Origin: Bacteriovoracaceae bacterium
Lineage (GTDB): Bacteria > Bdellovibrionota > Bacteriovoracia > Bacteriovoracales > Bacteriovoracaceae
Assembly (NCBI GenBank): GCA_018649885.1
Contig: JABIHA010000069.1
Coordinates: 1 to 64,000, forward strand
Direction of reading: 5' to 3'
DNA length: 64,000 nt
This document shows positions 56,750 through 64,000 of this stretch, piece by piece; the stretch's first letter is position 1, and every line of letters starts with the position of its first letter. The position numbers were made by a program, and so were the translations under genes. The notes below the pieces were generated by a model. The model searched no databases and had not been told where the DNA came from. It saw only the letters and a program-made list of their open reading frames with translations.

Positions 56750-57214
56750 ATGTTGGGCCCAGAAGATCTGAAGTTGAGTGCTATTGACTGTAAAAATGGT
56801 GAAGAGGTTGATTTCCTATATCAATTTATTTTTGATCACCATTCGACACCCAAAAACTTATTGCCCACGAAAGAAGAGCTTAACTCACCCTCACTTTTCT
56901 TTTTTAGGGCAGTACTTGATGAGAAGCTCATTGGCATGTCTAGCTACTACAAGGTCACTCCATTTTTGGCGGAAACCCAAAAGACCATAGTCCTTCCCGA
57001 GTTCAGGGGGAAAGGCTTTGGTAAGAAAATCTCCTCACTTATGGAAGATCTTATTAAAAATAGAGGATTCAAGAAAATTCGTTCTGCTATCTATATCCAA
57101 AATCTCAAGATGCTCAAAATCAAATTAGACCAAAGCTATATTATTGAGGGACTTCTAAGGGATCACGATGCTCCTGGGCTTCATGAATATAGTTTGGGAA
57201 AAATCCTCGGCTAA
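56750..57214 (+). CDS. GNAT-family N-acetyltransferase
   Basis: This is a 154-residue cytoplasmic protein. The acetyl-CoA-binding pattern is IVLPEFRGKGFGKKISSLME (Q/RxxGxG/A type), preceded by LDEKLIGMSSYYKV and followed by IRSAIYIQNLKMLKI, as expected of the GNAT fold. The substrate is unknown. A good ribosome binding site (TTGGAGAAG) precedes the ATG. Two tandem small RNA genes begin about 55 bases after its stop. Confidence 0.8.
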   Translation: MLGPEDLKLSAIDCKNGEEVDFLYQFIFDHHSTPKNLLPTKEELNSPSLFFFRAVLDEKLIGMSSYYKVTPFLAETQKTIVLPEFRGKGFGKKISSLMEDLIKNRGFKKIRSAIYIQNLKMLKIKLDQSYIIEGLLRDHDAPGLHEYSLGKILG

Positions 57215-57266: not shown

Positions 57267-57292
57267 TGAAACCTTTTTCCATAAGCCGCGTA
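57267..57292 (+). promoter_or_regulatory. ECF-sigma-type promoter of sRNA copy 1
   Basis: TGAAAC (57267-57272), 16 bases, CGTA (57289-57292). This matches the TGAAAC-N16-CGTA pattern described for ECF sigma factors such as SigW. The same arrangement is conserved in the second copy. Confidence 0.65.
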
Positions 57293-57298
57293 TTACCT

Positions 57299-57432
57299 AT
57301 GACATAACATCCTTATGCTTTTAATTTGCCCCCCCAAGGCAATTTTGATTGTGAAGGATCTAAAGATGGATTCTTCACATAAAGGCTTACCAGAGACTCA
57401 CGGAGTAGTTACTGGTAGGCCTTTTTATTTTT
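57299..57432 (+). ncRNA. small RNA, tandem copy 1
   Basis: This is a predicted RNA of about 134 bases, not translated in any evident frame. It shows three ordered stems. First is TTGCC/GGCAA with a C-rich loop CCCCCAA (57326-57342). Second is a 10-bp stem GTGAAGGATC/GATTCTTCAC (57351-57378). Third is a terminator stem (57381-57421, AAAGGC...GCCTTT with TACCAG/CTGGTA inside) followed by a T-rich tail. It is homologous over its full length to a second copy 265 bases downstream. The middle stem shows compensatory changes between copies. The unpaired C-run could base-pair with Shine-Dalgarno sequences, which is inference. Confidence 0.7.
57381..57432 (+). terminator. terminator of sRNA copy 1
   Basis: AAAGGC pairs with GCCTTT and TACCAG with CTGGTA, with an inner ACTC/GAGT stem, followed by TTTTTATTTTT. 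Confidence 0.8.
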
Positions 57433-57531
57433 CCCCCTACTTCATTTCTAATTTAAATCTGAAATTAAAACACTCCTTAACTAGTTGAATTTACTTGATT
57501 ATTTAAAAGGTTTATTTTATTTCGATTTTTT

Positions 57532-57557
57532 TGAAACCTTTTTCCCTAAGCTTCGTA
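57532..57557 (+). promoter_or_regulatory. ECF-sigma-type promoter of sRNA copy 2
   Basis: TGAAAC (57532-57537), 16 bases, CGTA (57554-57557), identical in hexamers and spacing to copy 1. A TTGAAA/TATTAT reading with 19-base spacing is possible here but not in copy 1. Confidence 0.65.
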
Positions 57558-57563
57558 TTATCC

Positions 57564-57694
57564 ATAACACAACATCCTTCTGCTTTCATTTGCCCCCCAA
57601 GGCAATTTAGAATGTGATGGAACTTATGATGGATCCACCACAGAAATGGCCCTCAGAGACTCAAGGAGAGTCCTGATTGGCCCTTTCATATTTC
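57564..57694 (+). ncRNA. small RNA, tandem copy 2
   Basis: This predicted RNA of about 131 bases is aligned with copy 1 from the promoter to the terminator. It has the same order of elements: TTGCC/GGCAA with loop CCCCAA (57590-57605), a stem GTG.TGGA/TCCA.CAC (57614-57641), and a terminator with GGCC and CTCAG/CTGAT pairing ending in CCCTTTCATATTT. Stem sequences differ from copy 1 while pairing is kept at several places (for example an A-T pair becomes T-A). That argues for selection on structure. No ribosome binding site or ORF is evident. Confidence 0.7.
57646..57694 (+). terminator. terminator of sRNA copy 2
   Basis: GGCC-CTCAG pairs with CTGAT-TGGCC, with GACTC/GAGTC inside, followed by CTTTCATATTT. 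The T-tail is weaker than that of copy 1. Confidence 0.65.
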
Positions 57695-57848: not shown

Positions 57849-58238
57849 ATGGGGAAAGCTCTTCTGTGCTTTGCGGTCGGTGTTGCTCTTACTACTAATC
57901 TCTACGCTTTAGAATCGGGTATAACCGGAAAAATAAAGCTCACTAAGGCACTTGCAAAGAAGATAGGCAAAAACTCAACTCTCTTTGTTATGGCGAAAAG
58001 AGTAGGTCGCTCAGGTCCTCCTGTTGCTGTAGTAAAAATAAAGTCTCCTGTCTTTCCACAAAAATTTAAAATTTCCCAAAATGATGTGATGATGAAAGGT
58101 CTTCCATTTGAAGGACCATTTATTATTGCTGCCAAATTGTCTCCCAGCGGAGACGCAATGGATGGGATGGCGCGCGGGTCTCACAGAAACCCTGTTCCTA
58201 TTGGAAGTCAGAATATAGAAGTCATTCTTAAAAGGTAA
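57849..58238 (+). CDS. exported CcmI/CycH C-terminal-like domain protein
   Basis: This 129-residue protein has a signal peptide (LLCFAVGVALTTNLYA). The mature part (GITGKIKLTKALAKKIGKNS, LFVMAKRVGRSGPPVAVVKI, FKISQNDVMMKGLPFEGP, IIAAKLSPSGDAM) follows the pattern of the periplasmic C-terminal domain of the cytochrome c biogenesis protein CcmI/CycH: strand, TLFVxAR, PLAV, DDxMMxG, VxxRISxSG. In CcmI this part binds apocytochrome c; here it stands alone without membrane helices or TPRs. AGGAACT precedes the ATG. The role is unknown; a chaperone-like binding role is inference. Confidence 0.75.
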   Translation: MGKALLCFAVGVALTTNLYALESGITGKIKLTKALAKKIGKNSTLFVMAKRVGRSGPPVAVVKIKSPVFPQKFKISQNDVMMKGLPFEGPFIIAAKLSPSGDAMDGMARGSHRNPVPIGSQNIEVILKR

Positions 58239-58285: not shown

Positions 58286-58717
58286 TTAAGTGCAGTGACC
58301 TAAGAGTTGTGATTTCCCTATAGCTCCAATATTACAACCTTTTTCAAAAACAACTTTATAATTAAATGGCATGTTGTGAATCACTTCATTGGCCCCAATC
58401 ATAGCTCCAGGGCCTAGCTCGGTGATTTTTTTATTGGAATGAAAAATTCGAGCTTTTCCTTGCACTATAAGATACGCCACAAGTGGAATCTGCCCCTTAT
58501 CAATTGATACATAATCACTTTTTAACTTGTGGAAATAAGCGAGGTGCTTTTTTGAAAGATAAAAATGAGTGCTTGAATTTATGGCCGCGAACTTGATTCC
58601 CAAAATTCTAGTCAACAAAGAACATTGAATACATACTTTCTCAACTACAAATGCAATTGAAAATAAACTAAAAATAATAATCCCTCCAACAAACAAGTAA
58701 CTCGGTATAAGAAACAT
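58286..58717 (-). CDS. membrane-anchored cyclic-nucleotide-binding-fold protein without HTH
   Basis: This is a 143-residue protein. One membrane helix is present near residues 4-27 (LFVGGIIIFSLFSIAFVV). The C-terminal part (LVAYLIVQGKARIFHS, ITELGPGAMIGANEVI, VVFEKGCNIGAIGKSQL) matches the beta-roll of Crp/cNMP-binding domains, including the glycine-rich ELGPGAMIG turn. There is no DNA-binding domain. The Arg that contacts cAMP phosphate is not evident, so the ligand is uncertain. GGAGGGGGG precedes the ATG. It follows a related gene at 58747-59205 by 29 bases in one operon. Confidence 0.7.
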   Translation of the reverse strand: MFLIPSYLFVGGIIIFSLFSIAFVVEKVCIQCSLLTRILGIKFAAINSSTHFYLSKKHLAYFHKLKSDYVSIDKGQIPLVAYLIVQGKARIFHSNKKITELGPGAMIGANEVIHNMPFNYKVVFEKGCNIGAIGKSQLLGHCT

Positions 58718-58746: not shown

Positions 58747-59205
58747 TTAAAAATGAGATTTATTAGCGTATTGATCTTTTAAACTCTTTTCGTTTTCCAT
58801 GATTTCTTTCACATATTTCTTGTCAAAAAAACAGGCCACAGTGTCGGTCAAAGCCTCGGCTTTAAAGTCAGTATATTCTTCTTCTAAATGACACATGCCT
58901 ATTGTACTACCAGGTCCTAATTCTTTACTGGTGATGGTCCCATCTTTATTTTTTGTGGAAAAATTAATAAGCCCAGATTTTATACAAAAAATTCCATAAT
59001 AAGGGGTCTTAAAATCAATAAGTGCTTGTCCCTTTTTATAAAAGTTAAATATTTTCATCTTGCTATTCAAATCTAATTGGTCCTGGTTAAAACCACAGAA
59101 TATTGATTTCATTAAAACATTGCATTTTGAACACTGTGGAGGAGCATTTTTTTTGATAACAACCCCCTTGCTACTTATACATTGATAAAGATTTTGCTGT
59201 AACAT
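58747..59205 (-). CDS. Crp/Fnr-type sensor domain without HTH
   Basis: This is a 152-residue soluble protein. The N-terminus has CSKCNVLMKSIFCGFNQDQL, resembling the Cys-containing start of Crp/Fnr-family regulators. It is followed by the beta-roll (KKGQALIDFKTPYYGIFCIK, INFSTKNKDG, ELGPGSTIGMCHLEEEYTDF) and one helix (KYVKEIMENEKSL). The chain stops where the HTH domain should begin. It is therefore a sensory domain alone, perhaps acting by protein contact. It lies 29 bases upstream of the membrane-anchored relative on the same strand. The ribosome binding site is weak. Confidence 0.75.
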   Translation of the reverse strand: MLQQNLYQCISSKGVVIKKNAPPQCSKCNVLMKSIFCGFNQDQLDLNSKMKIFNFYKKGQALIDFKTPYYGIFCIKSGLINFSTKNKDGTITSKELGPGSTIGMCHLEEEYTDFKAEALTDTVACFFDKKYVKEIMENEKSLKDQYANKSHF

Positions 59206-61355: not shown

Positions 61356-61967
61356 CTAACATCTTCTCCATTGAATTTTGTAAATGATACCTGCATGAAA
61401 ATCTGCTGAGTCCACAGTGGCCAGTGCATCATCTTTATTTCTATTTGACCTAACTAGCATACTGGCGTTGACACGCAAATTGACATCATCCCCACAACGA
61501 GACCATGACAGTGCTGCTATCCCGATTGGATTGTTTAAGAAATAATCATTGTCAAATCCACCTCTGAAAGTTCTTCTAAAACGAGGGCCTCTTGTTCCCG
61601 CAAAAAAGTATTCAGTACTAAATCGGGCCATGCCGCCAGGAGGAACCGAAACGAAACCACGATAATCCACTTGGATGATAGAAATGCTAAGTCCTTGGGG
61701 AACATGAACTGGTACTGCAATATTACAGCCTTTTCTTGCGATTCGTCTTGCTCGTGGGCCACCACCTGCTTCAACAACAAACGAGTCAAAAAGAAGACTC
61801 AGCTCTTTTCTGTCTGGGCTTAGTGTTGCTGATACCGATCCTCCAGGGCAACCTGTTCCGCCGTAACCTGGCAGACCTAGTTGAATATCATTGGGGTCAG
61901 CAAAAGCAGATGTGCCAAAAGCACCAGCAAATACAAATAGTATTAATTTTTTAACAAAACTTTTCAT
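61356..61967 (-). CDS. secreted DUF4360 protein
   Basis: This 203-residue protein has a signal peptide (KLILFVFAGAFGTSAFA). The mature chain has the DUF4360 marks: GYGGTGCPGGSVSATLSPDR, LSLLFDSFVVEAGG, KGCNIAVPVHVPQGLSISI and YRGFVSVPPG, with a late SRCGDDVNLRVNASM and a C-terminal WRRC. The family is secreted, with conserved Cys, and of unknown function; it is found in fungi and various bacteria. A strong ribosome binding site (AAGGGAG) precedes the ATG. A diverged relative is encoded in the opposite direction 186 bases away. Confidence 0.88.
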   Translation of the reverse strand: MKSFVKKLILFVFAGAFGTSAFADPNDIQLGLPGYGGTGCPGGSVSATLSPDRKELSLLFDSFVVEAGGGPRARRIARKGCNIAVPVHVPQGLSISIIQVDYRGFVSVPPGGMARFSTEYFFAGTRGPRFRRTFRGGFDNDYFLNNPIGIAALSWSRCGDDVNLRVNASMLVRSNRNKDDALATVDSADFHAGIIYKIQWRRC

Positions 61968-62153
61968 ACAAACACTCCCTTAAATTTAAAGGCAATATTG
62001 CCTAACAATTATTTCCTGTATTGATCAATTTCCTAAGTGCTATCAATCATAAATTTTTATCTACATTTTTTTTAAATCCTTTGCTATCAATTGCAAGTCG
62101 TATCGAGAGAATACAAAACAGAAAAGATATATTTAAAAAACTAGGAGTTGCAA

Positions 62154-62897
62154 ATGATAAATGGCATAAAAAATTATAATCGTGGTACAAAAATAAAATG
62201 TATTCTATTAATTTTAACTTTATGTATTCCTGGGATTTCATATGCTCAGAATAAATTTACTTTTGATCAACCAGTATTGAGAGGGACTGGTTGTCCCCGG
62301 GGAACCACATCAGTGATTATGAGTCCAGACAATCAGGAAATTACTTTGCTATTCGATAGATTTTCAGCAGAGGTTCCACAAGTAGATGGTGACAATGATA
62401 ATGACTTAGTTACATCTGAAAATCCAGGTAGAGGCAATCGTCGAAATAAGAATCGTTCACATAAAGTATGTAATATGATTGTCTCTGCCAGTCTTCCTGA
62501 AATGAGGAGAATCGTGGGACTAGGTATATCCATTGATTTTCGCGGTAGTACAATTATTGAAAACAATGCACGTGCAGTTTTTCGTGCAGTTTTACTTAAA
62601 TGGAAAGGTCCCAGAGGAAAGCGTGGCAAACGTCATGAAGTTCATCGCCGCGCCTGGCGTGGCCAATTTGTTAATGACAATTGGTTTATTAATCTGCATA
62701 AATTGACCAAGCTACGCAGTGGCTGTTCAAAAAAACGTGAACGAAAGGTAGTCTTTAAGCTGAGAAATATCATTATGGCGTCTATACCTAAGCGAGTTGA
62801 TGCAACTAACGCATCCGCTTTAATTACACTAGACTCTCAGGATATTTCTGGAAAAATGAAATTTAGGGTGAGGACAGCTCCATGTCGAAATCTCTAG
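62154..62897 (+). CDS. secreted DUF4360 protein, basic variant
   Basis: This 247-residue protein has an N-terminal signal (CILLILTLCIPGISYA). DUF4360 features are LRGTGCPRGTTSVIMSPDNQ, ITLLFDRFSAEVP, HKVCNMIVSASLPEMRR, GISIDFRGSTII and a late LRSGCSKKRERKVVFKL. Compared with the divergent neighbour it carries an insert of about 25 charged residues (near 75-100) and is much more basic. The start ATG is six bases after AGGAG; an upstream TTG is in frame. Both copies face away from a shared promoter region, so coordinated secretion is likely. Confidence 0.85.
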   Translation: MINGIKNYNRGTKIKCILLILTLCIPGISYAQNKFTFDQPVLRGTGCPRGTTSVIMSPDNQEITLLFDRFSAEVPQVDGDNDNDLVTSENPGRGNRRNKNRSHKVCNMIVSASLPEMRRIVGLGISIDFRGSTIIENNARAVFRAVLLKWKGPRGKRGKRHEVHRRAWRGQFVNDNWFINLHKLTKLRSGCSKKRERKVVFKLRNIIMASIPKRVDATNASALITLDSQDISGKMKFRVRTAPCRNL

Positions 62898-63786: not shown

Positions 63787-63825
63787 CCTCCTCGGAGAAT
63801 ACGTTAATGTGGAAATGGGGGGGCC

Positions 63826-64000
63826 ATGTTCAAAAATAGAGAGGAAGCTGGTAGGTCTTTAGCACAAGAGTTTGGAGAAAAGATTAAAAAGCTTAGAGAC
63901 CTTGTTGTTGTTGCTCTACCTAGAGGTGGAGTCCCTGTGGCCTTTGAGATAGCACAAAGACTTAAACTTCCTTTAGACGTTTTTTCAGTGAAAAAGATTG
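63826..64000 (+). CDS. phosphoribosyltransferase-type protein (5' part)
   Basis: The gene starts at an ATG after a G-run and runs off the window, giving 58 codons. The product starts MFKNREEAGRSLAQEF and contains VVVALPRGGVPVAFEIAQRL and LPLDVFSVKKI. This is the standard start of stand-alone phosphoribosyltransferase-domain proteins, which are common in stress clusters with CBS or universal stress genes. The PRPP loop itself lies beyond the end of the window, so the call rests on the N-terminal pattern. Confidence 0.85.
   Translation, partial: MFKNREEAGRSLAQEFGEKIKKLRDLVVVALPRGGVPVAFEIAQRLKLPLDVFSVKKI

Follow-up and report, generated by a model that had tools for sequence, protein, structure and literature searches.

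Tandem small RNA genes behind an ECF-type promoter in a Bacteriovoracaceae genome: putative non-coding arm of an ECF sigma regulon

A gene-free stretch of a Bacteriovoracaceae genome carries two paralogous units, each comprising an ECF-type promoter, a predicted small RNA with an exposed C-rich loop, and a terminator or terminator-like hairpin. On balance, we favour the view, with moderate confidence, that these are twin trans-acting small RNAs which would constitute the non-coding arm of an ECF regulon, their C-loop repressing the translation of envelope proteins. This reading is supported at the sequence level by promoter identity, ECF autoregulation, the RNA fold and the enrichment of seed-matched target sites.

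Two paralogous units and their fold

The window, i.e., the whole 64,000-nucleotide stretch of DNA that was analysed, corresponds to contig C82 of a 5.45-Mb genome (151 contigs, 38.7% G+C), which we compared with 128 other genomes of the same family, none of them from the source's own genus. Both units are flanked by a GNAT gene (ending at 57214) and an Ig_CycH-domain gene (starting at 57849). As described in the first-pass annotation, the two segments can be aligned from promoter to terminator (approximately 78% identity from the -35 element to the terminator) in a region devoid of protein genes: an ORF scan of this ~630-bp stretch found no frame of at least 60 aa between 57215 and 57848. Moreover, the copies differ by 1- and 2-nt indels, which argues against protein coding. 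A third copy is absent from the source genome according to both sequence and covariance-model searches. The features of the locus are as follows.

57267-57434 (+): unit 1, promoter to terminator
57267-57295 (+): ECF promoter of copy 1; -35 TGAAAC at 57267-57272, 16-nt spacer, -10 CGTA(TTA) from 57289; exact match to the extended promoter
57299-57432 (+): predicted small RNA copy 1, ~133 nt; 5' end placed by the usual ECF spacing
57326-57342 (+): C-loop hairpin of copy 1, TTGCC-CCCCCAA-GGCAA, with seven consecutive C's
57350-57379 (+): middle stem of copy 1, 12 pairs
57381-57434 (+): terminator hairpin and U-tract of copy 1, with an ANGGA motif within the apical segment AGACTCACGGAG
57532-57694 (+): unit 2, promoter to terminator
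57532-57560 (+): ECF promoter of copy 2, TGAAAC-N16-CGTATTA; exact match to the extended promoter
57564-57694 (+): predicted small RNA copy 2, ~130 nt, with a presumed 5' end
57590-57605 (+): C-loop hairpin of copy 2, TTGCC-CCCCAA-GGCAA, with six consecutive C's
57613-57642 (+): middle stem of copy 2; relative to copy 1, two pairs lost and one compensated
57644-57694 (+): terminator-like hairpin of copy 2, with an imperfect U-tract and the apical loop AAGGA

Conservation between the copies is highest in the promoter, in the leader AACATCCTTNTGCTTT, in the C-hairpin (TTTGCC, the C-rich loop with its AA end, and GGCAATTT) and in the apical terminator segment AGACTCANGGAG; in the alignment, the leader and the C-hairpin are nearly invariant. 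The proposed succession of C-loop hairpin, middle stem and terminator was recovered for copy 1 and, close to its optimum, for copy 2. Copy 1 folds into these three elements at -45.2 kcal/mol (z -5.6 vs shuffles), while copy 2 reaches -39.6 kcal/mol (z -3.2). In the global optimum of copy 2 the leader is paired differently, with the three-hairpin form lying within ~2 kcal/mol; without its leader, copy 2 adopts the same three hairpins as copy 1 (-37.8 kcal/mol). In both copies, a C-rich loop is predicted to be exposed on a stable hairpin. The U-tract behind the copy 2 terminator hairpin is poor.

The first-pass annotation had read selection on RNA structure from substitutions in the middle stem that keep pairing. 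The quoted changes from copy 1 to copy 2 (one A-U to U-A, one G-U to G-C) are real, but two other pairs are broken, and random placement of the substitutions equals this covariation ~10% of the time (P ~0.1). Hence, middle-stem covariation alone is not significant, which counts against our reading, and it lends selection weak support. Selection on folding is supported instead by the retained fold energy: among random mutants of copy 1 made at equal divergence to copy 2, only 0.15% matched the energy of copy 2 in the part after the C-hairpin (P ~0.0015).

The promoter and the ECF sigma factor

Each copy is preceded by TGAAAC, 16 bases and CGTA, exactly as noted earlier (57267-57292 and 57532-57557), and these two matches in the window compare with 0.07 expected. 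The bare pattern is, however, not enriched genome-wide (8 matches vs 16 in the control), and we rejected it as evidence, only its extended form being informative. Among the six exact matches outside the two units, three share a T-rich stretch after the -35 element together with CGTATTA. The resulting extended promoter, TGAAAC-N-TT-N13-CGTATTA, has exactly five matches in the source genome (~5.4 Mb), no one-mismatch versions there, and no matches in the 128 other family genomes. The five sites lie at an ECF sigma gene (C43:18572), both small RNAs, and two TIGR02147 genes (C109:14307 and C134:47971). A sixth, looser match (C71) was discarded, as it lies inside a coding frame beside a cytochrome-like motif. 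The extended promoter was refined on the very matches it describes, and its independent support comes from its footprint in ECF relatives. Taken together, there is strong support for the claim of a pair of small RNA genes with ECF promoters, since elsewhere in the genome the extended promoter is found only at the ECF gene and the two regulator genes, and ECF relatives keep it. The ECF promoter is likewise common to the two TIGR02147 genes, which encode TIGR02147/DUF4423 HTH proteins.

The small RNAs therefore share their promoter type with a named ECF sigma gene of the same genome, whose product matches the ECF superfamily model TIGR02937 and stays below the cut-offs of the NCBIfam SigW models (111 bits vs 209, and 105 vs 243). 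Behind the ECF gene lie genes for a 129-aa single-TM protein, for a 68-aa protein that looks secreted and for a DUF3106 protein; the 129-aa protein has no Pfam match and, by its position, is probably the anti-sigma factor. Relatives of the ECF protein (31-53% identity) are present in 20 other genomes, and the 5' ends of their genes carry nGAAAC-TTT-CGT(A/C) with 16-base, rarely 17-base, spacing. This promoter was seen by eye at 18 of 22 loci, the source genome included, and at a scoring cut-off at 19 of 22 vs 8% of shuffled or flanking stretches, these loci being not fully independent since several genomes come from one genus. At all 18 loci the site lies within an open frame. The codon before GTA/GTC ends in C in each of the 15 in-phase cases (background 16%, P ~1e-12), and the motif is kept in a different frame at three loci, which argues that the ECF promoter is conserved as DNA and not as protein. 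Given that the ORF includes the autoregulatory promoter at its 5' end (C43:18572-19500 and 17 further loci), the promoter bases may double as N-terminal codons, or the true start may be located further downstream.

In the relatives, the same promoter also stands ahead of genes for lipoproteins and secreted proteins, including orthologues shared between genomes, which points to an envelope-type ECF sigma factor and suggests a wider direct envelope regulon in these bacteria. Orthologous small lipoprotein or secreted-protein genes with an ECF-type promoter were observed in G032 (C12:15756) and G107 (C94:21341), and in G105 (C38) and G106 (C88). Where other genomes of the family carry this promoter, we recognised mostly protein genes behind it and no small RNAs of this kind.

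Predicted targets and alternative readings

Given the loop CCCCC(C)AA, its targets are predicted to carry TTGGGGG at their ribosome-binding sites. We examined an unbiased sample of 1.26 Mb (1,078 gene starts) alongside 0.8 Mb from relatives without the RNA, with gene starts and signal peptides called by simple custom rules. GGGGG occurs 46 times at starts vs 8.5 expected in the source genome and 10 times vs 3.5 in the relatives (Fisher test for the difference, 4e-4); TTGGGGG occurs 7 times vs 1.2 expected and not at all in the relatives. Signal peptides are encoded by five of the seven TTGGGGG genes (P=0.03) and by 9/11 once four TTGGGGGG genes from the whole-genome G6 list are added (P=0.0006), a figure that pools two samples, as the added genes come from a separate scan. 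For all starts of the unbiased sample with G-runs of at least 5, the signal-peptide enrichment is mild (18/45); we rejected such a general enrichment as weak, and the targeting claim rests on the loop-matched subset. Compared with the sampled relatives of the same G+C, the source genome shows a roughly threefold frequency of G-runs of at least 5 at its ribosome-binding sites.

The best candidate site, TGCCTTGGGGGG, which precedes the gene for a secreted pectate-lyase-like protein (C21:38586), offers 12 contiguous bases complementary to the hairpin; CCTTGGGGGG is present at two more candidate target sites, and a secreted POTRA (BamA-like) protein gene (C21:50954) carries the candidate site AAGGGGGG. 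The gene starts at C21:40332 and C101:382 are further candidate targets. Hence, the earlier suggestion that the C-loop suits pairing with Shine-Dalgarno sequences and that the RNAs may regulate translation in envelope stress gains statistical support for predicted sites of envelope genes. Two points weigh against it: G-rich ribosome-binding sites could by themselves serve translation, and the mRNAs of the co-regulated TIGR02147 and ECF genes do not stand out as targets of the C-loop; they reached middling ranks and were rejected as such.

Several neighbouring genes in the window deserve mention. Two adjacent small genes (58286-58717 and 58747-59205, both on the minus strand) encode a cNMP-binding domain with no visible DNA-binding domain; the Shine-Dalgarno region of the former, GGAGGGGGGAATATG, is a possible C-loop target adjoining the RNAs. 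The ribosome-binding region of a phosphoribosyltransferase gene at 63826, TGGGGGGGCCATG (63817-63828, +), contains eight G/C bases complementary to the C-loop. Two divergent genes for similar secreted proteins (61356-61967, -, and 62148-62897, +) look like a duplicated pair, their products sharing GTGCP and LSPD/MSPDxxELxLLFDxF stretches.

RybB and MicA act with Hfq. The source genome gave no PF17209 match, while each of five control genomes gave one; with an assembly 92% complete, this absence is not proof of lack, but an encoded Hfq, as in the Hfq-dependent RybB/MicA type, was not found. CsrA, on the other hand, is encoded. Given this, the ECF-controlled RNAs might titrate CsrA, relieving its repression like RsmX/Y/Z or McaS, instead of or besides pairing through the C-loop. 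Each copy has three conserved A-N-GGA motifs, one of them in the apical loop of the terminator (CUCA[A/C]GGAG), where the GGA segment was kept though the stem beneath it changed. Nevertheless, there are only three motifs, two of which lie in or near the paired middle stem; the terminator-loop motif alone is clearly exposed, and classical CsrA-titrating RNAs usually carry more exposed motifs. Titration also leaves the invariant C-hairpin and leader unexplained, and we consider it unlikely. The leader itself, as conserved as the C-hairpin, could be the main seed, its unpaired stretch AACAUCCUUNUGCUUU matching AAGGAU-type Shine-Dalgarno sites, with the C-hairpin serving mainly as a stabiliser or second seed. 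Its complement ATAAGGA is indeed enriched at gene starts (17 vs 1.9 expected), but relatives that lack the RNA show the same excess (14), as for ordinary Shine-Dalgarno sites, and is thus no evidence of targeting; a leader seed seems distinctly improbable.

The search for homologues with conserved stems, whose absence the first-pass annotation had named as a refutation, went partly against the proposal of twin trans-acting RNAs: none were found in 124 family genomes by the covariance model or in a GTDB-wide pattern scan. The covariance model was built from two sequences, with one C dropped from the C-run of copy 1 for register, and may miss distant homologues; it gave two weak matches (E 0.03 and 0.07), which we rejected as they lack the promoter and C-hairpin anatomy. 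A DNA search of 59 relatives returned two weak matches without promoter or hairpin, one of them coding-like, and these were likewise dismissed, as were 22 scattered matches of the GTDB-wide scan, none of them backed by the covariance model. Viral contigs showed no match to the small RNA, and no Rfam 15 family exceeded its gathering cut-off; the best sub-threshold match, a PyrR leader (copy 1 only, 29.6 bits vs a cut-off of 54), was rejected. The lack of homologues outside the source genome speaks against our reading and would be expected if the units were duplicates in decay or without function, lying in an intergenic region specific to this lineage, as would the poor U-tract and the two lost middle-stem pairs of copy 2. 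However, the two copies hardly differ in promoter, leader, C-hairpin and apical loop, and the fold energy is retained (P ~0.0015), which renders decay very improbable. Least credible is the possibility that the RNAs act in cis, as leaders or attenuators of the gene at 57849: they do lie upstream on the same strand, and copy 1 has the PyrR-leader match, but both copies possess a promoter and a terminator-like hairpin of their own, that match is far below the cut-off with none for copy 2, and the Ig_CycH gene has no pyrimidine or amino-acid role.

Known small RNAs and the proposed regulatory arm

The putative RNAs resemble several described systems. GsrN of Caulobacter (PMC5869019) is transcribed by an ECF-type stress sigma factor (sigma-T), and its exposed C-rich loop, its most conserved part, pairs with a G-rich 5' mRNA site; unlike the present RNAs, with two copies and predicted envelope targets, it is a single gene that activates katG as part of the general stress response of alphaproteobacteria, and the likeness is one of description; no sequence relation was seen. 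LhrC1-5 of Listeria (PMC4132741) are multicopy RNAs of ~110-130 nt, induced by envelope stress and not requiring Hfq, whose C-rich loops block the Shine-Dalgarno sites of surface-protein mRNA, but they are unrelated in sequence, are controlled by the LisRK two-component system rather than an ECF sigma factor, and use UCCC motifs at three sites where the present RNAs have a single C6-7 loop. Similarly, sX13 of Xanthomonas (PMC3771888) acts independently of Hfq through apical C-rich loops on G-rich motifs of ribosome-binding sites, yet it is a single gene with three C-loops and is not known as a member of an ECF regulon. RybB/MicA of enterics (PMC1804206) and FoxI/FoxJ of Fusobacterium (PMC11005410) each form a repressive small-RNA arm through which an ECF envelope-stress sigma factor lowers envelope-protein synthesis, but with different seeds and no sequence relation.

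We infer that the RNAs are produced, that the stress concerns the envelope, that the 129-aa protein is the anti-sigma factor, and that pairing occurs and is repressive. According to this model, the anti-sigma factor (probably this single-TM protein) would release the sigma factor, which, once freed, would transcribe its own operon, both small RNAs and the two TIGR02147/DUF4423 HTH-protein genes. Each RNA would expose its CCCC(C)AA loop and pair, without Hfq, to UUGGGGG-type Shine-Dalgarno sites, thereby blocking the translation mainly of secreted and envelope proteins, and the surface-protein load would fall under stress. More tentatively, we speculate that the RNAs represent an undescribed family and belong, as its non-coding arm, to a very small ECF regulon in which every detectable output besides the sigma operon is a regulator, namely two small RNAs plus two HTH proteins of the TIGR02147/DUF4423 type, with a C6-7 loop silencing envelope mRNAs without Hfq and Shine-Dalgarno sites having gained matching G-runs; we regard this fuller picture as possible rather than probable. 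Each single feature has a precedent, while the RNA itself is without an Rfam family or a found homologue. If our proposal is true, a repressive small-RNA arm of an ECF sigma factor would have been gained independently in yet another lineage, this time apparently without Hfq, with duplicated RNAs and with a concrete predicted target set. With the extended promoter, the autoregulated ECF gene and the predicted TTGGGGG targets in hand, this proposal is directly testable.
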